Positions 1 through 35,353 of a stretch of 35,353 nucleotides of DNA are shown here, piece by piece. The notes under the pieces were generated by a model. It ran no database searches. It was given only the letters and a program-made list of their open reading frames with translations, and had not been told where the DNA came from. This DNA comes from a virus. The stretch spans positions 1 through 35,353 of the IMG/VR virus record IMGVR_UViG_3300036715_002192. One strand, written 5' to 3'. Position numbers and translations under genes: made by a program. How positions within the stretch are numbered: the first letter of the stretch is position 1; the number at the start of each line of letters is the position of its first letter.

Positions 1-313
1 TCTCCTTAAATGATACAATCATAGAATTATTATACACAAAACTTATAGACCTGTTATTAGAAATTAATCCTGTCAGTTGATTATTTGTATAAGTAGGTGA
101 AAATATTTCAACAATATTATTATTAGTGTATATCATCTTTGTGAAATGACGAATCTCTACCTCACTAAGAAACATTGATGATATGTTTAATCCCATATAT
201 TCTACTGAGAAAGATGGATATTTAGTATCAAAAACAAATTCTAATGATTCTGTATCCGAGTAAATTCTCTTCAATGATTTTTTAATATTGTAATTTATTG
301 TTTCAGTAATCAT
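1..313 (-). CDS. partial gene, probable fourth member of the minus-strand repeat-protein cluster
   Basis: The frame opens with ATG at 313-311 and stays open to the window edge, giving 104 residues of an incomplete protein that begins MITETINYNIKKSLKRIYS. It overlaps the stop codon of the upstream gene as ATGA, so it is probably translationally coupled. A purine-rich site (GGAGG, read on the minus strand) precedes the start. The visible part is rich in Tyr, Asn, Ser and Ile, with alternating beta-type patterns like the three genes upstream of it. No known domain can be assigned from the fragment. Its inclusion in the surface/fibre-like cluster rests on position, overlap and composition. Confidence 0.75.
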   Translation of the reverse strand, partial: MITETINYNIKKSLKRIYSDTESLEFVFDTKYPSFSVEYMGLNISSMFLSEVEIRHFTKMIYTNNNIVEIFSPTYTNNQLTGLISNNRSISFVYNNSMIVSFKE

Positions 314-1848
314 AAAATACCTCCTTTAGTTATCTCAAAAAAATCTGCTAATTTATAACTACTGATATTTGTCGCAACAGGTGAATCTGTTTCTGTTGAA
401 CAGGTTATAGGTTCATTATTTTTATCGTAAGTAATTGTTCCTATTTTTACTTTTCCATAATCATCATATATATCATCTATTTGCATGTTATCAGAAAGTT
501 TGAATGTAAAACTACCTAATTTATTAGCACCTGAAGCAATATAATTATGATCAATTTTTAATGTTCTGTCTTTTTGGTTATATGGATTACGTATATAGTT
601 AAAGGTTGAGAACAATATACTTGCATCATGCTTATCAGTATAATATGTTTCAATTTGTGATATTTTATTTTGATTATAAAAATATCTTATATATCCAAGT
701 TTTGTTAACGTAGGATAATCAAGTATATCTAAACTTTTAATTTTACCATAACTATAATTAGGAACAAGTTTATAATATAATATTCCATTGTATTTGAAAT
801 CTAATGATTCTAAATTTGTCTGCTCACCATTCATATCTATGTTAAATTTACATAGATTTACGACACTACCATCTTGGATAATCAATCCTGGTATAAAAAA
901 TCTATTTACATTTATTTTTGTTACATCATAATTATATATAAGATTTGCTTGTACACCATCAATATTCATATCAACTGATGTTATTAATTCAGGTTTAGCG
1001 TACCCATAAACAACTTGAGAATTTTGTATATCATTATATTCAATTCTATTTTTAAGAACTTTAAACCATAATATTTTCAAAGTTGTAGTTCTATATGTTG
1101 CAACAAGATTACCAACAGAATTATATTGCATATCAATTCTTTTGTATGTGGTTCCTGTACATAAGATATATGAAAGTTTTTCACCAGCATATCTAAATGT
1201 AAATGTTGCATCAATAAGATATGATAATCTTCCTAATGCATCTTTACGATAACTATATTCATCCATACGTTCAAGTTTATCACCATTATATGTATATATT
1301 ACTTTCCATTGCACTGCAGGTGTATTTGTGTTTGTTCCTAGAACTGATTGAATTTTTCCATTGACAAAAGTCGGTATTATCTGAATGGTAGTATCTGGTG
1401 ATTGAATTCCAGTAATTTCTGATTGAACACCATCACATGTTATATTATCCATACTAATCTCTCGAAGAATACTAATCGGTGTTCTGTTTACAACAGGAGT
1501 AGATTTATCAAATGTAAATTGATACATAATGTTTGTCTGCATATTGTATTCAGATATTTTTGTATAATTATCAGGTCGTTTCCAAAATTCATTATACATT
1601 GAACTATCAGCTTGTGTAACTATATAATCAATTTTATTCTTATGATCAATAATTTTTTTAGCCTCATCGTTTACATCACGTGAAAATGTGATTAGTTTTT
1701 CAAGAGGTTCAGAATTTGTATCTTTTACAGTAGTTAACTTTCCTTCATTATAGATGAGATCATAGGTAATAGGTGTTCCTGCATTATCTGCAATTAATAC
1801 TTGACTATAATCAGTATCTTTTACGTATGTATATACTCGTGTACCCAT
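310..1848 (-). CDS. YD/RHS-like beta-repeat protein, putative phage surface or fibre component (512 aa)
   Basis: A 512-residue protein with no domain I can name confidently. It is built from many short beta-hairpin-like units of the form Y-x-Y-x(2)-G/D-K-L-x(3)-x-Y, for example YTYNGDKLERMDEYSY, FRYAGEKLSYI, QYNSVGNLVATYR and YDDYGKVKIGTITYDKN. These recall the YD repeats of RHS/teneurin shells, although the strict YDxxGRL consensus is only approximate. There is no signal peptide or membrane segment. The start ATG at 1848 overlaps the upstream stop codon (TAATG) and the stop overlaps the downstream start (ATGA), so it is the middle of a tightly coupled operon. Late expression from the promoter near 5407 and a role in host recognition are inferences. 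A non-structural role cannot be excluded. Confidence 0.6.
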   Translation of the reverse strand: MGTRVYTYVKDTDYSQVLIADNAGTPITYDLIYNEGKLTTVKDTNSEPLEKLITFSRDVNDEAKKIIDHKNKIDYIVTQADSSMYNEFWKRPDNYTKISEYNMQTNIMYQFTFDKSTPVVNRTPISILREISMDNITCDGVQSEITGIQSPDTTIQIIPTFVNGKIQSVLGTNTNTPAVQWKVIYTYNGDKLERMDEYSYRKDALGRLSYLIDATFTFRYAGEKLSYILCTGTTYKRIDMQYNSVGNLVATYRTTTLKILWFKVLKNRIEYNDIQNSQVVYGYAKPELITSVDMNIDGVQANLIYNYDVTKINVNRFFIPGLIIQDGSVVNLCKFNIDMNGEQTNLESLDFKYNGILYYKLVPNYSYGKIKSLDILDYPTLTKLGYIRYFYNQNKISQIETYYTDKHDASILFSTFNYIRNPYNQKDRTLKIDHNYIASGANKLGSFTFKLSDNMQIDDIYDDYGKVKIGTITYDKNNEPITCSTETDSPVATNISSYKLADFFEITKGGIL

Positions 1849-2849
1849 TAGTAAGTCTCCGTTATTTTATTGATTATTCCTGCACTATCATATTCATATG
1901 AAAATGTACTAATACGATTACTATCACCATCACAATAATCTACATGATGAATTTTTGTCTTATCTGCTACATTATTTACAATTCCACCATAATACATAAT
2001 ATACATATGTTTTCTTTTTGACTTATCAAGAGTGAAAATTTCAATATTAACTATGTACGGTTGTATATCATTAGTTGGTTTAAAAAAGTATTGTAAAGGT
2101 CCATATTCACCTAAATAAAATGTATTTACTAGAACTTCATCAGGATTATAATTAACCTTCACAAATTCATCATTCAAAATACATTCAGCGGTTGCACCGT
2201 ATATTAATGATACTGGTGAGGTTGGCGAATCTGTTAACCATCCAGTAGTATTATATAAATCATTTACTTCTAGTGTTTGATTTCTTAAAGTATTATCATC
2301 TGAATAATCAAATTCAACATAATCATCTGTTACCAGAAGGGTATCAAGATAATTCGGAATAACATTCTCAAATGTCGTATCATCCCAATAATCACTAAGA
2401 ACGAATCCTCTATCAGTTAAGAGATGACCTGATTTTGCATATGCTTGTTGAACTTCATAATATTTTCCTTCTAAAGTGTATCCTCTTACAAAAGCACCTT
2501 CATACATAATATCAAGATGATTTGTTAGATTTGTAACAGATCTCATTTGATATATTGTATCAAGAACATTATCAGAATTAAAATTTAATAATTTATTATC
2601 ATCATTTACAAGTCCAATATTTGTATCAAAATCTTTTGATAGAATATTATCAAAGATATTATATTCCTGTGCAAGGGATAGTTGTTTCCCCACTAGAATA
2701 CGAAATTTTCTGTTATAGACATCAGTATCACAGTAATTAAGATTACAGTAAGTTTCTGAAACATATAATTCTGTTTCAGGTCTATACGTTGATAATACTC
2801 CAGCTTCAGACAAATCATTAGACATTGTTAATTCATCATTAAATCCCAT
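1848..2849 (-). CDS. YD/RHS-like repeat protein, paralogous architecture (333 aa)
   Basis: A 333-residue acidic protein ending in FSYEYDSAGIINKITETY, which closely resembles a YD repeat (YEYDxxGxIxxI). The rest is Asp-, Asn- and Tyr-rich and beta-patterned, with no membrane segment. An AGGAG site at 2856-2860 (read on minus) precedes the start, and an 8-bp hairpin ends one base before that site. The gene is separated from the 806-aa gene upstream by only 74 bases and overlaps the next gene at its stop. The shared style with its neighbours suggests a family of duplicated and diverged surface proteins. The molecular function is unknown. Confidence 0.6.
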   Translation of the reverse strand: MGFNDELTMSNDLSEAGVLSTYRPETELYVSETYCNLNYCDTDVYNRKFRILVGKQLSLAQEYNIFDNILSKDFDTNIGLVNDDNKLLNFNSDNVLDTIYQMRSVTNLTNHLDIMYEGAFVRGYTLEGKYYEVQQAYAKSGHLLTDRGFVLSDYWDDTTFENVIPNYLDTLLVTDDYVEFDYSDDNTLRNQTLEVNDLYNTTGWLTDSPTSPVSLIYGATAECILNDEFVKVNYNPDEVLVNTFYLGEYGPLQYFFKPTNDIQPYIVNIEIFTLDKSKRKHMYIMYYGGIVNNVADKTKIHHVDYCDGDSNRISTFSYEYDSAGIINKITETY

Positions 2850-2861
2850 TTTATGCTCCTG

Positions 2862-2882
2862 TCAAGATGCAAAACATCTTGA
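2862..2882 (-). promoter_or_regulatory. 8-bp RNA hairpin abutting a ribosome-binding site
   Basis: TCAAGATG (2862-2869) and CATCTTGA (2875-2882) are perfectly complementary, with a five-base loop CAAAA. On the minus strand the hairpin sits between the stop of the 806-aa gene and the AGGAG of the 333-aa gene, one base from the latter. There is no U-tract after it, so it is not a typical intrinsic terminator. It could be an RNA-processing or stability element, or a weak attenuator separating the expression of the two genes. Confidence 0.55.
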
Positions 2883-2923
2883 ACTAATTTGTGTAATCAA
2901 TATAACATATAGATCTGTACAAT

Positions 2924-5344
2924 CTATACAACAACGGGTGGACACATATTTACATAAAATGTGTCGTATGTACAACCATCTTCCCAATAAATTGTATCAC
3001 AACTTACATTATGTGAACACATATTTACATAGAATTTGTCATATGTACAACCATCTTCCCAATAAATTGTATCACAATCTACAAAAGATAGACACATATT
3101 TACATAAACTGAGTCAGTTGTACAACCATCTTCCCAATAAATTGTATCACAATCTACATTAGGTGAACACATCACTATGTAAAGTGTATCAGTTGAACAA
3201 TCATCTTCCCAGTAAGATATGTCACAACTGTCAACCGGTGCACACATCACTACATAAAATGTGTCGATTGAAAAATCATCTTCCCAGTAAAATGAATCAC
3301 ATTCATCACCTGGACATGGTTCACGCATAGGTATCTGATATGTACCAATTGCTGTTACAAGATAATTATCTCCAACAAAATATCCAAGTTGACTATAACC
3401 ATCATTTGCACGTGCAATGGTTGTAGCATAACTATTTTCAGAATTGAAATATCCTGCTCTTGTAATATATGGTTTTGCGTACAAGAGCGCATATTCATCA
3501 TTAGGCATCTCATATTTGAATGATCTTACTCCAAGGGTTTCAAGATATTCTATTCTTTTTACAAATTCACCAACCTTGATATTTGATATTTTGTTGTATA
3601 TATCAACATAATAAGGTTTACCATTATCAGAATAATGTGGAATGAAAAAATACTCATTTCCATCTTTTTTAACAATCATATATTTTAGATATGGTTGGCA
3701 ACCTGTACCATCAGCAAAATTCCAATCAATATCAAGTGAAAAGAATCTGTGAACCTTTGGTCCATCATAATCATAAACAAAATCAATTGAGTTATATTCA
3801 TCTTTGTATATTAGTTCAGTTGCTATTGCATCTGCAGGATCTGAGGTTCCTGTGATAACATTGTTACATTGTGAAGTTCCTAAAAATTTAGTCTCAGTAG
3901 TTAAGTTATCTTCAAAGAAAATTGCTGATGATATTCCATGATTATAACAACCGTGTGTCCATTTTACAGATGGTTTATCTAATGCAACATATCTGTTTGC
4001 ACCATCAAACGCTTTACTTACTGGTTTGTAATTTAAATCTAAATTAAATCCGCCATTTATCATATCGACGAATCTATTAATTCTTTCACTTACAAGTCTA
4101 TCAACAGTATAATGTTTTATTAGAATTTCATCTGCACTGAATTTCATTACCTTATAAAGTTTTTTATTAATATCATAATAATAATTTAATATACCACCAT
4201 ATACAAATTCAGTATCATCATCACTAAGTACACTAAAGACTAAACTATCAATAAGGTAATCAGGACGATAAACTGGCGTTGCTTTTTTAACAATTTCACC
4301 AATTTCGTTGAAATAACGTATTTCAGTAATGTATTTGTGATTTGTTTCAAATGCAAGATTTGTCAATCCATAATCTTCGAAATCAGTAAATGAATTAATA
4401 TAATGTTTTGATTCATCAACATCAATTTCAATTCTTCGTGAATATTCGCTACTAACCCCATAATATTGTTCACAGAGAATAGCTGGATTTAAATTTGCAG
4501 GAGGTATTAAGAAAGGAACCTCTGCAAAATAGAATACATTACATGATACAATTGTATTCCATTCAAGTACTTTTGAAATTATATGTGCTCTTCCATCAAG
4601 GTCAACACTAAATCTCATATATTGTGAATTTTCTTTATCGAAACCTGAAAAATATCTTGTTCTATTATTATACATATAAACAAGTTTCTGATAATCTATT
4701 ACTTCATCTGCTGAATTATAGTAAGTTTGTTGCATATGAACATCATATATTTTTAATTGATCATCAACATTTACACTTACTACTTTTATAGCCAATCCAT
4801 ATGATATTCCATCAATACTTGTATATTCACTAACTGTAATTGTTTCAATATCGTTATCAAGTGAATATTTAAACTGCCATTTTGTTGTAATAATATTTTT
4901 AGAAAAATCTGTATATTGTAGTTCTTGAATTCTTAATTTATCATCTATCTCTTCATAAAGAGGATTATATTCACCTATAACTCTACCATTGTAGAATTTT
5001 CTAATTTTTGAGATGAAACATAATGATATTGTTTCATCAAAACTTGCATAATAAAGCATATTTCTAAAGTTTGTAAATGGGCGAATTTTCTTTTTAGAAT
5101 TATCATATTCAAACACTAAACCTACATCAAGTGTTCCTTCTTTACATATTTCATAATGTACATTATTGCAGTTTTGAATATCAGGAATAGACTTTACTTT
5201 CCCTAGCGTTGTATCCACATGTACAGGAGGAGTTAGAACATATGGTTTACTTGGTACGCCAAAAATTTGCTGGATATTTGATGAGGCATTTAAATCAATA
5301 AATTCGTATTCAAATATATTAACACTTGGGCTTAAAATTGTCAT
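2924..5344 (-). CDS. large repeat-rich structural protein with C-terminal Cys-rich tandem repeats (806 aa)
   Basis: First gene of the minus-strand cluster. The N-terminus, MTILSPSVNIFEYEF, resembles the first residues of contractile-tail sheath proteins (LSPSxNxxExD-type), but the rest is not sheath-like. Residues of about 20-680 carry YD-like beta units such as FKYSLDNDIETI, FVYDYDGPKVHRFF and IRYFNEIGEIVKKA. The last 125 residues are five head-to-tail 25-residue units with Cys at positions 1, 10 and 20 (the first unit has Phe at 10) and an invariant YWED. No signal peptide is seen. A T4-late-type TATAAATA on the minus strand at 5414-5407 is the probable promoter. I infer a tail-attached adhesin or decoration protein; no exact family is recognised. 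Confidence 0.6.
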   Translation of the reverse strand: MTILSPSVNIFEYEFIDLNASSNIQQIFGVPSKPYVLTPPVHVDTTLGKVKSIPDIQNCNNVHYEICKEGTLDVGLVFEYDNSKKKIRPFTNFRNMLYYASFDETISLCFISKIRKFYNGRVIGEYNPLYEEIDDKLRIQELQYTDFSKNIITTKWQFKYSLDNDIETITVSEYTSIDGISYGLAIKVVSVNVDDQLKIYDVHMQQTYYNSADEVIDYQKLVYMYNNRTRYFSGFDKENSQYMRFSVDLDGRAHIISKVLEWNTIVSCNVFYFAEVPFLIPPANLNPAILCEQYYGVSSEYSRRIEIDVDESKHYINSFTDFEDYGLTNLAFETNHKYITEIRYFNEIGEIVKKATPVYRPDYLIDSLVFSVLSDDDTEFVYGGILNYYYDINKKLYKVMKFSADEILIKHYTVDRLVSERINRFVDMINGGFNLDLNYKPVSKAFDGANRYVALDKPSVKWTHGCYNHGISSAIFFEDNLTTETKFLGTSQCNNVITGTSDPADAIATELIYKDEYNSIDFVYDYDGPKVHRFFSLDIDWNFADGTGCQPYLKYMIVKKDGNEYFFIPHYSDNGKPYYVDIYNKISNIKVGEFVKRIEYLETLGVRSFKYEMPNDEYALLYAKPYITRAGYFNSENSYATTIARANDGYSQLGYFVGDNYLVTAIGTYQIPMREPCPGDECDSFYWEDDFSIDTFYVVMCAPVDSCDISYWEDDCSTDTLYIVMCSPNVDCDTIYWEDGCTTDSVYVNMCLSFVDCDTIYWEDGCTYDKFYVNMCSHNVSCDTIYWEDGCTYDTFYVNMCPPVVV
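2927..3301 (-). repeat. five tandem 75-bp repeats encoding Cys-rich YWED units
   Basis: On the minus strand the five units lie at 3301-3227, 3226-3152, 3151-3077, 3076-3002 and 3001-2927, each exactly 75 bases or 25 residues. The pattern is C-D-x-x-Y-W-E-D-x-C then (S/T)-x-D-x-x-Y-(V/I)-x-M-C followed by five variable residues. Units 3-5 are nearly identical in DNA while units 1-2 have diverged, which indicates growth by recent duplication at the 3' end of the gene. The repeats also create a spurious open frame on the plus strand. Confidence 0.92.
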
Positions 5345-30736: not shown

Positions 30737-31798
30737 ATGCCAGTAAATATTCAACTATTAAAACAAGGTGATCGCTCACCAGAAAATTTTAACACTCCTT
30801 TGATTCAACTTAACACTGGAAAGGAAGATAGATTATCATTACCTTATAATCTTGGGTTAGTGCTAACTTCTGATCTTCAAGGTAATAAAACGTGGATTCA
30901 GAATCTAGAACTAGGTGTTACTGCAAAAAACGCATACAGAGGGGATTATGGGCAGATTGCATATAATCACAGTCAATCATTTCACGATTATTACCCAAAT
31001 CAAGGTGGTAAAATAAAAGGTGATATAGATCTAAATACACATAAATTAATTCTTAGTACAACTAATACACTAGAAGTTATAGCAGCAGATACTGTTGTTA
31101 CATCAAATGGATTTTTTAAAGTAAAAGGTTTAGGAATTAAGATTGATTCAACTGTAAATGCTCTAACAGTAAGAAGTTTCTCAGGAACAACAACATCAGG
31201 AATAGGATTATACATAGATGCTGATTACTTAGCTTTTGGTAAATGGGCAGCTGGTCAAGGACCTCAAGATGAAATGGTTATGACTTCAAGTCAACCAAAA
31301 GTATATGCTGGTGACCAAGTAAGAGCACAACGTTTAACTGCACCAGTAATTGTTGCAGGTACATCTCAACTTGACAGCTCAGGACTAAAAATTAATGGTG
31401 TTTCTGTTATAGATGGTTCAGGTACTATATCAGGTGCGAATATCGATCTTGTTGCCGATTATGAATCTGCATGGATATATGTAACAGGTGGAGATTATAG
31501 AATTACAATCCCTCATAATATGGGTTCAAGACCGAGAATATCGCAAATTATATTCTCATATGATAATTCTGTATCAGAAACAAAAACAGTATATACAATT
31601 CCTCATATTCAGACCGGTTACAATAATTATTGGTGGTATTGGTGGTATGGTTGGTATGGTTATGGTGCAAACTGTCATACAATTGTTGAAAGTTACAACA
31701 ATTCATCATATGTAATCAAAACTGGTTCAGGTGGTGTTTATTCAAATGGTGATTCACAATGGTATTCAGGCTATGTTAAAATAATGTTTTGGAAATAA
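30737..31798 (+). CDS. tail fibre protein with aromatic C-terminal tip (353 aa)
   Basis: A phage fibre-type protein. It opens MPVNIQLLKQGDRSPENFNT, then has an AKNAYRGDYGQIAYNHSQSF segment typical of fibre N-terminal halves. The centre is a Thr/Ser/Gly beta region (GGKIKGDIDLNTHKLIL). Residues of about 240-353 form a distinct domain with a run of aromatic residues, YNNYWWYWWYGWYGYG, and ending SGYVKIMFWK. The exposed Trp/Tyr cluster suggests sugar binding. The start has TAGGA and a hairpin-embedded late promoter. An assembly-protein-like gene follows. Confidence 0.75.
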   Translation: MPVNIQLLKQGDRSPENFNTPLIQLNTGKEDRLSLPYNLGLVLTSDLQGNKTWIQNLELGVTAKNAYRGDYGQIAYNHSQSFHDYYPNQGGKIKGDIDLNTHKLILSTTNTLEVIAADTVVTSNGFFKVKGLGIKIDSTVNALTVRSFSGTTTSGIGLYIDADYLAFGKWAAGQGPQDEMVMTSSQPKVYAGDQVRAQRLTAPVIVAGTSQLDSSGLKINGVSVIDGSGTISGANIDLVADYESAWIYVTGGDYRITIPHNMGSRPRISQIIFSYDNSVSETKTVYTIPHIQTGYNNYWWYWWYGWYGYGANCHTIVESYNNSSYVIKTGSGGVYSNGDSQWYSGYVKIMFWK

Positions 31799-33816: not shown

Positions 33817-34287
33817 ATGGGAACAAAAGTAATTTTAGAGCGTCAAGAGCTTCAAGATTTAAGTGATTATTCAACTAAAGAAGATTATACTTATTTAATT
33901 AGTTTAATTAATGCTGCACACACACGTGCAGATGCAGCTTATGCAGATGCAGAGGCAGTTAGAAAAATAGCATCAAGTAAATCACTCACATTTAACAGTG
34001 GAGGATTTAAGTCTGCAGGGACATATATATATGAACTATCATCTTTATTAAGTATTGTTAATCCTGATGCATGGAATTTTTCAATAAGTGTTTCTGTTCT
34101 TGGTGCAACTACGGGTACAACAGGTTATGGTGGCGGTGTTCCTGTTGCTTCAGCTGCACCATCAGTTTCAGGTTATGTAACAGGACATTCGGCAGTAATT
34201 GTAGTTAGTGCACAAACTGTTTCTGGATATCATGCAACTCAGTCATCATTATCATTTGGTGTTACTGTATCTGCAACTATGATATAA
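33817..34287 (+). CDS. small structural protein, possible fibre tip or decoration protein (156 aa)
   Basis: A 156-residue protein. The first 55 residues are a helix (RQELQDLSDYSTKEDYTYLI, AHTRADAAYADAEAVRKIA) likely to trimerise. The rest is a Gly/Ser/Thr/Val-rich beta domain (SLTFNSGGFKSAGTYIYEL and later VSGYVTGHSAVIVVSAQTVS). The helix plus small beta-head plan suits a fibre tip or decoration protein, and it directly follows the collar-domain fibre. No family is recognised. AAGGAGATAAT precedes the start. Confidence 0.65.
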   Translation: MGTKVILERQELQDLSDYSTKEDYTYLISLINAAHTRADAAYADAEAVRKIASSKSLTFNSGGFKSAGTYIYELSSLLSIVNPDAWNFSISVSVLGATTGTTGYGGGVPVASAAPSVSGYVTGHSAVIVVSAQTVSGYHATQSSLSFGVTVSATMI

Positions 34288-34296
34288 AGGATATTA

Positions 34297-35268
34297 ATGT
34301 TTAGCATTGGTTATACAGAGGGATTGAGTGAGATATTTGAAGAAATTGATACGTATGATAAAATTAGCGATGTTTATTTTTCAATACCAAATGCCTACAC
34401 AGCATCAGCACGAGTTACCGGGTTTAATGAAAAGATGTTCTATGAATTGAAAAAAATTCAATCAAAAGGTGTAAAACTTCATCTTGTTCTTAATGGTGCA
34501 ACATATAATGAAAATGCTTATACTGAATCTGGTTTAAATGATATTGTTAAAATTATTGATACACTTGGTGTTGAGATGTTAACTATAAACAATACTGCTA
34601 TTATGAAATCAATTCAATTTCAAGAATTGAATGAAAAAATTATTATTAAAAATTCTGTTAATAATAAATTGAAAACGTTAGATGATGTTATTCAATATGT
34701 TTCGTTTTTTAAATTTAAACACATTATGCTTGATAGATCATTGAATAGAAATAAAGATGAATTAGAAAAAATTATACAATATTGTAAAACTAATGGTTAT
34801 ACAACAACATTGTTAGTTAATGAGGGATGTATTGCAAATTGTCCTTATAAGCAATTTTGTGATGATGCATTATCAAATCATGATTTAACAAAAAACAATA
34901 ATTTTGCTGTTCTTACATGTAGTTCAGATTTTGAAAGTAATAAATCATTAACATTGAAATCACCATTTATCATTCCTGGTTATATCAATAAATATCGTGA
35001 TATGGGTATAAATTACTTTAAAATTGCATGTAGAGGAAAAACAATCGAAGATGTGAGGTCTAGATTAAAAGCGTATATGTTTGATAATAAAAATATATCA
35101 CTTTCAGTTGCATTGGATACAAATCCTCATTACATCTACAAAACTGTTAATGCACATGTGCTTGATGAATATAATTTTTTTGAACATACTATTAACTGTA
35201 AAAATAAATGTCATGAATGTAATTATTGTGATGTGTTACTTGAAAAATTTTTAAAAGAGGAAAAATAA
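34297..35268 (+). CDS. U32 peptidase-family protein, probable Fe-S enzyme (323 aa)
   Basis: Resembles the U32/UbiU-UbiV/TrhP/RlhA superfamily, TIM-barrel proteins with a cysteine-bound 4Fe-4S cluster that hydroxylate small molecules or RNA in bacteria. Visible family features are strand repeats (KGVKLHLVLNG, GVEMLTINN, FKHIMLD), the motif NEGCIANCPYKQFC (Cys178, 182, 188), Cys208, and SPFIIPGYINKYRDMGINYF followed by KIACR (Cys245). An additional C-terminal cluster C-x3-C-x2-C-x2-C (Cys301, 305, 308, 311) is not a usual family element. No protease motif is evident. It sits in a fibre operon with AAAGGATATTA before ATG. The substrate is unknown: RNA, sugar or fibre modification are possibilities. 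Confidence 0.7.
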   Translation: MFSIGYTEGLSEIFEEIDTYDKISDVYFSIPNAYTASARVTGFNEKMFYELKKIQSKGVKLHLVLNGATYNENAYTESGLNDIVKIIDTLGVEMLTINNTAIMKSIQFQELNEKIIIKNSVNNKLKTLDDVIQYVSFFKFKHIMLDRSLNRNKDELEKIIQYCKTNGYTTTLLVNEGCIANCPYKQFCDDALSNHDLTKNNNFAVLTCSSDFESNKSLTLKSPFIIPGYINKYRDMGINYFKIACRGKTIEDVRSRLKAYMFDNKNISLSVALDTNPHYIYKTVNAHVLDEYNFFEHTINCKNKCHECNYCDVLLEKFLKEEK

Positions 35269-35353
35269 TGATTAAATTATATGAAACACAAGAAGAGAGA
35301 AATTCATTTCAACACATATTTGAATCTCAAAGAACAATACTTGTTGATGAATA
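35268..35353 (+). CDS. partial gene downstream of the U32-family gene
   Basis: The frame opens with ATG at 35268, overlapping the U32-family stop (TAATG), and stays open to the window end. The 28 visible residues start MIKLYETQEERNSFQHIF. AAAGAGG lies just upstream. Tight coupling suggests a role linked to the U32-family protein. The fragment is too short to identify. Confidence 0.65.
   Translation, partial: MIKLYETQEERNSFQHIFESQRTILVDE

Follow-up and report, generated by a model that had tools for sequence, protein, structure and literature searches.

RlhA and TrhP, two U32-family proteins, are required for the prephenate-dependent hydroxylation of C2501 in 23S rRNA and of U34 in tRNA, respectively, direct catalysis not having been demonstrated there; TrhP needs C170 and C177, and RlhA needs C169 and C176 (PMC6599085). 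UbiU and UbiV, which carry one [4Fe-4S] cluster each, act in the hydroxylation of ubiquinone precursors, and the canonical ligand motif of the family is Cx6Cx15Cx3/4C (PMC6747719). In phages, the DNA of RB69 and other members of Mosigvirus carries arabinose bound to 5-hydroxycytosine, the formation of 5-hydroxy-dCMP being ascribed to a TS-superfamily enzyme (PMC13390438), while in Thanatos a pentose is O-linked at C5 and the authors state no hypothesis for attachment of the hydroxyl (PMC12838424).

We analysed a U32-like gene in a virus record of 35 kb (35,353 nucleotides, hereafter the window), which carries T4-like myovirus tail genes for the sheath stabiliser, tube, baseplate hub and wedge, followed by fibre genes. 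The gene is an intact plus-strand ORF (34297-35268) with an ATG start, and encodes a two-site U32-like protein of 323 aa. Since an ORF of this length is expected by chance with p ~5e-13 at the base composition of the window, and since its differences from a 90% identical copy in L003 (34/11/86 by codon position; 79 synonymous and 33 non-synonymous codons) follow a pattern of purifying selection, it is a functional gene. Its features and those of its neighbours are collected in Table 1.

Table 1 Coordinates of the U32-like gene, its predicted sites and neighbouring genes in the window
Feature	Position	Strand	Basis
Probable fibre protein, 353 aa, with aromatic stretch WWYWWYGWYGYG near C-terminus	30737..31798	+	Role by position; no family match
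Tail-fibre-assembly-like protein, 116 aa	31808..32158	+	phrog_33112 1.9e-11; Caudo_TAP 0.0028, under cut-off
Tail fibre/collar fibre protein, 545 aa	32170..33807	+	phrog_8469 4.6e-16; phrog_1800 6.8e-12
156-aa gene between collar-type fibre gene and U32-like gene	33817..34287	+	No family match
Ribosome-binding site AAGGA	34287..34291	+	From sequence; 5 nt upstream of ATG
Two-site U32-like gene, 323 aa	34297..35268	+	Profile match, model and fold, purifying selection
Invariant Asn175-Glu176, directly N-terminal to C178	34819..34824	+	Alignment
Predicted first metal site, C178-x3-C182-x5-[C/H/D]188-x19-C208	34828..34920	+	Alignment
K242-x-x-[G/C]-R246, with invariant K and R; equivalent of the 'KIEGR' motif of U32	35020..35034	+	Profile and residue alignment
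Predicted second, C-terminal site, C301-x3-C305-x2-C308-x2-C311	35197..35229	+	Alignment
Start of partner gene, cut at window end	35268..35353	+	TAATG overlap; whole in L005:10972-11616, 214 aa

Ancestry and fold of the protein

A preliminary description of this DNA had called the protein U32/UbiU-like and proposed a search against PF01136 (peptidase family U32). Run directly on the window protein, Pfam scans gave no match to PF01136, and Pfam and NCBIfam scans together with PDB sequence searches returned nothing significant. In PHROGs, the protein matched PHROG_1458 (1.7e-13), which corresponds to cyanophage T4-GC_354, and PHROG_5757 (1.2e-9), which includes RB69 ORF050c, labelled 'peptidase'; ORF050c in turn matches PF01136 (7.4e-11, 42.2 bits). 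Moreover, the homologue in L006, 40% identical to the window protein, reached 1e-4 and 22.1 bits against PF01136 (cut-off 22.4) and exceeded the cut-off in a further scan. When a profile of 41 relatives was aligned pairwise to single proteins, RlhA gave a probability of 95.7 (score 70), a canonical U32 protein of Desulfobulbus 85.4 and TrhP 78.3, against at most 1.7 (score at most 23) for 27 control proteins. UbiU gave a weak match (14.8) and UbiV none (0.4).

Consistently with these matches, the AlphaFold model of the window protein, built with 41 sequences, was confident (pLDDT 91.7, pTM 0.91) and had as its top Foldseek match in the PDB the U32 protein Mk0906 (5D88; E 3.2e-8, 11% identity over the aligned part), with other TIM barrels from 3.6e-5, which together indicate the U32 TIM-barrel fold; among viral models, the top match was a phage 'peptidase'. 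Because the relatives bridge to PF01136 and both the profile matches and the 5D88 fold agree, U32 ancestry is well supported, at great distance, and we regard membership of the superfamily as almost certain. The claim of U32 membership was thus borne out by profile and by fold; its narrower part, 'UbiU-like', was not, given the profile results above and the absence of the UbiU ligand motif.

A two-site ligand frame and its spread

Conservation was assessed in an alignment of 102 unique relatives (8 window-type, 4 RB69-type, 59 cyanophage-type and 31 bacterial-genome sequences). Seven cysteines (178, 182, 208, 301, 305, 308 and 311) were near-invariant, the equivalent of Cys301 being displaced by one residue in RB69-type sequences, and so were Arg151, Asn175, Glu176, Lys242 and Arg246. 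Position 188 is Cys in all RB69-type and most window-type sequences, His in cyanophage and bacterial relatives and Asp in L019/L020, while position 245 is Gly in most relatives, the Cys245 of the window protein standing at the G position of 'KxxGR'; the protein also has Cys163. The Cys-rich core proposed earlier (178/182/188/208/245) therefore stands at 178, 182 and 208, is relaxed to C/H/D at 188 and does not extend to the unconserved 245, and the C-terminal C-x3-C-x2-C-x2-C cluster proposed with it is present and near-invariant in the 102 relatives.

C178 aligns to RlhA C169, the first U32 Cys ligand. From there on the canonical motif is not present in the 102 relatives, which have Cx3Cx5[C/H/D]x19C in its stead. 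Nor is there a Glu eight residues N-terminal to the first Cys, where TrhP has its essential E162: position 170 is T, I, L, F or V. Neither the UbiU (Cx6Cx16Cx38C) nor the UbiV (CxnCx12Cx3C) ligand motif was found in two-site sequences. The C-terminal C301-x3-C305-x2-C308-x2-C311 cluster is not part of the canonical U32 core domains and is conserved as well as the first site. The window protein fits this subfamily frame throughout, with C178/182/208, C/H/D188, NE, K-x-x-x-R and the C-terminal CxxxCxxCxxC. We read the first site, as predicted from the alignment, as a rebuilt one with three Cys plus C/H/D, and the second as a four-Cys site; judged by homology, the protein very probably binds metal or Fe-S, and we infer that both sites may hold Fe-S clusters. 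With the canonical Cys site replaced and a C-terminal four-Cys site added, the window protein belongs to the U32-superfamily barrels yet is distinct from UbiU, TrhP and RlhA.

The window protein shares with RlhA (23S rRNA ho5C2501) and TrhP (tRNA ho5U34) the barrel fold family, the KxxGR motif and the correspondence at C178, whereas these enzymes have Cx6Cx15Cx3C ligands and the essential Glu, are longer, with further C-terminal sequence, and lie on a separate branch of the tree. UbiU and UbiV, like it, are minimal U32 proteins, and between them they carry two Fe-S clusters; unlike the two predicted sites of the window protein, which lie in one chain, these are split over a heterodimer, and both their ligand motifs and their profile results set them apart. 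In a tree built by a quick method, with few canonical rows and long branches, two-site and canonical U32 sequences were split by a branch with 100% SH-aLRT, and no window-type sequence fell within the canonical clade.

Three phage branches could be distinguished. Window-type proteins (323-329 aa) are encoded in fibre operons. Cyanophage-type proteins such as T4-GC_354 are likewise two-site barrels from fibre operons of T4-like phages, yet differ from the window protein in their length (540-590 aa), in His at 188 and in an extra, fused C-terminal domain of Methyltransf_24/O-methyltransferase type, which in L084 scored 26.4 bits with Methyltransf_24, at the cut-off, and stayed below the own cut-off of the O-methyltransferase model. 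RB69-type proteins (about 380 aa) are encoded between DNA polymerase and uvsX, together with sugar genes. ORF050c (PHROG_5757, from Mosigvirus and relatives) matches PF01136 directly and shares with the window protein its phage origin, the two-site Cys frame, Asn-Glu and KxxGR, but is only ~21% identical to it, is 389 aa long and belongs to a DNA-modification module instead of a tail operon.

Profile matches were also obtained in 37 of the 297 Desulfobacterota genomes of the phylum, in proteins (L113, L120 and L125, for example) that have the Cys frame and motifs of the window protein but are cellular; Pfam recognised none of three such proteins scanned. In a quarter of the loci (7/28), including L120:4526-6939, the two-site gene lies directly 3' of a canonical U32 gene whose nearest relative in the tree is TrhP, a tandem that recalls the UbiU-UbiV pair. 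Reading of the flanking sequence placed a UDP-glucose 4-epimerase-like gene beside the two-site gene of L108. In L125, L126 and L127, genes of xanthine-dehydrogenase-type molybdenum hydroxylases, read in the same manner, adjoin the two-site genes. This two-site subfamily, not recognised until now, is common to many T4-like phages and Desulfobacterota, and phages may thus apply such chemistry to their own particles or DNA.

Fibre operon, coupled partner gene and proposed function

The preliminary description had placed the gene right after fibre genes and coupled it to a further gene, and both observations were confirmed. Its stop shares TAATG (35266-35270) with the ATG of the next gene, of which the window includes the first 86 bases and which is complete (214 aa) in L005; there the U32-like protein is 100% identical to that of the window, and a terminase gene follows the partner gene on the opposite strand. 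In the window-type contigs with a readable upstream side (L001/L005, L003/L012, L014-L017 and L019/L020), the U32-like gene lies within or directly behind fibre genes; the L006 contig starts at the U32-like gene, with the upstream side out of view. All window-type loci, L006 included, encode a partner protein of 213-242 aa downstream, clearly homologous among L001/L005, L003/L012 and L014-L017 and weakly similar in L006 (1.5e-6) and L019 (2.2e-6), which is modest evidence of homology since these E-values come from a two-sequence search. Family and PDB searches with the partner protein gave no recognisable family and no PDB relative. A radical-SAM gene (PF04055, 5.7e-18) sits between the U32-like and partner genes in L006, the only such gene found among the window-type records; these records are fragmentary and yielded no 2OG oxygenase. 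Collagen-like fibre proteins are encoded close to the gene in L019 and L020.

Fibre genes and 2OG-Fe(II) oxygenases surround the cyanophage-type copies, several of which have a tryptophan halogenase directly downstream, and annotated cyanophages carry a GC351-352-353-354 block downstream of large fibre-type genes; S-ShM2 and Syn33 are laboratory isolates that have T4-GC_354 in the fibre operon. Methyltransferase fusion, fibre genes, 2OG oxygenases and halogenase together are the make-up of a tailoring cluster, and next to the tail-fibre genes these loci may serve to tailor proteins. At L043:3534-5611, L060:9545-11694 and L024:9344-9928, the U32-methyltransferase gene is directly followed by a gene for a tryptophan halogenase, for a 2OG-Fe(II) oxygenase or for both, with family matches for L043 and L024, the L060 halogenase being assigned from its length and a pooled scan.

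We propose that the window gene may encode an enzyme of the late tail operon. The protein would be a U32-type TIM barrel of minimal form with two Fe-S sites, of which one, with rebuilt ligands, occupies the U32 active-site position and the other is C-terminal, and it would probably hydroxylate its substrate without O2 or carry out a closely allied redox tailoring reaction. The substrate would be a tail-fibre protein or the partner protein of the next, translationally coupled gene, since these are encoded together with it. Computed support comes from the U32 ancestry and fold, the conserved ligand frame, the recurrent place in fibre operons and the conserved partner gene. By homology to TrhP, RlhA and UbiUV, hydroxylase-type chemistry has about an even chance, and this chemistry may have changed, since neither the E162 equivalent nor the canonical Cx6Cx15Cx3C motif is kept. 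For the window branch, context favours a virion protein among the targets suggested before (RNA, a sugar or a virion protein); given an enzyme, the genome context makes such a target an evenly balanced proposition, gene position by itself being no proof of substrate. The missing direct match to PF01136 and, in the fragmentary window-type records, the lack of 2OG oxygenases and (L006 aside) of radical-SAM genes speak against the proposal. Taken as a whole, the reading of a two-site Fe-S enzyme that hydroxylates a fibre or partner protein without O2 is tentative, somewhat short of even.

Modification of nucleic acid, in which a pyrimidine would be hydroxylated in DNA precursors (to 5-hydroxycytosine) or in RNA, draws on the relatives of the protein. 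RlhA, the best E. coli match, makes 5-hydroxycytidine (PMC6599085), and the 5-hydroxycytosine of DNA is the deoxy counterpart of this product. ORF050c (L008:7950-9119) lies two genes away from the TS-like gene ORF048c in the module for the arabinosylated 5-hydroxycytosine of RB69 DNA (PMC13390438), and the U32-like gene TH1_065 of Thanatos (L009:7716-8852) is in the same type of module, in the phage whose C5 hydroxyl came without a hypothesis (PMC12838424). The RB69-type gene is thus a natural candidate helper in making the 5-hydroxyl of pentosylated cytosine, and the two-site family a concrete candidate for the origin of this group, although a TS-superfamily enzyme has already been assigned 5-hydroxy-dCMP formation (PMC13390438). 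For the window gene, however, such a role is unlikely: it sits in a tail operon with no adjoining replication genes, the protein has no recognised extra RNA-binding domain, and the TS-like and sugar-nucleotidyltransferase genes, both found in the RB69-type record, were not found by the same search in window-type or cyanophage-type records, several of them fragments, others cyanophage records of 143-175 kb. Because these partners were not found in the searched records, we rejected the transfer of the DNA-modification role to the window type.

A sugar or small-molecule substrate, such as a metabolite or a glycan on the fibre or the host surface, would agree with the sugar-nucleotide cluster in which RB69-type relatives lie, with the epimerase-like neighbour in L108 and with the molybdenum-hydroxylase-like neighbours of other relatives, all these bacterial neighbours being read from sequence; as L108 is one case and the neighbourhood of the window gene contained no recognisable glycosyltransferase or sugar gene, we consider it distinctly unlikely. 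An assembly factor or structural virion component, with metal sites for stability only, would account for the position among fibre and fibre-assembly genes, and the C-terminal CxxxCxxCxxC might then hold Zn or an Fe-S cluster in a structural role; this is very unlikely in view of the conservation of Asn-Glu, Lys and Arg in phages and Desulfobacterota alike, the methyltransferase-domain fusion of cyanophages and the presence of the family in cells without tails. The older U32 naming, which survives as 'peptidase family U32' in several phage records, would make the protein a protease or collagenase, a reading that we rejected on family biology and find hardly credible: functionally established U32 members act in hydroxylating RNA or quinone precursors (PMC6599085, PMC6747719), and the conserved residues resemble metal sites.

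If the tailoring of a virion protein by the two-site enzyme is true, T4-like virion proteins would bear enzymatic modifications left out of account by receptor-binding models built from sequence or structure, a widespread marine cyanophage gene, now 'hypothetical', would gain a testable function, and the U32 superfamily would gain a second ligand architecture. A broader scheme, in which an unrecognised two-Fe-S U32 branch would serve as a toolkit for O2-free hydroxylation of side chains in tail fibres or adhesins (which in cyanophages the fused domain would then methylate, halogenases and 2OG oxygenases being encoded nearby) and would help to supply the 5-hydroxyl of arabinosylated cytosine in the DNA of RB69-type phages, is more speculative and rather doubtful.

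Further observations in the window and in L003

The aromatic run WWYWWYGWYGYG of the 353-aa fibre protein is unusual and is conserved in L003 and L016. As a general substrate of the enzyme it was rejected, since only the closest relatives have the stretch and the other branches are without it. At the other end of the window, on the minus strand (310-5344), three large ORFs of 512, 333 and 806 aa had no PHROG match at 1e-3.

A 641-aa endonuclease-like ORF (L003:4334-6259) with no counterpart in the window is inserted among genes of the fibre region, and a gene for an RCC1-like repeat protein (L003:11624-13042; GTVWACGYN...GLG repeats) separates the partner gene from the terminase gene; L005 has none there. 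The large terminase gene, continuous in L005, is interrupted in L003 (13039-16096) by an intein-like insert, read in two overlapping frames, which begins with Cys after FG and ends in HNC before QFEGS.
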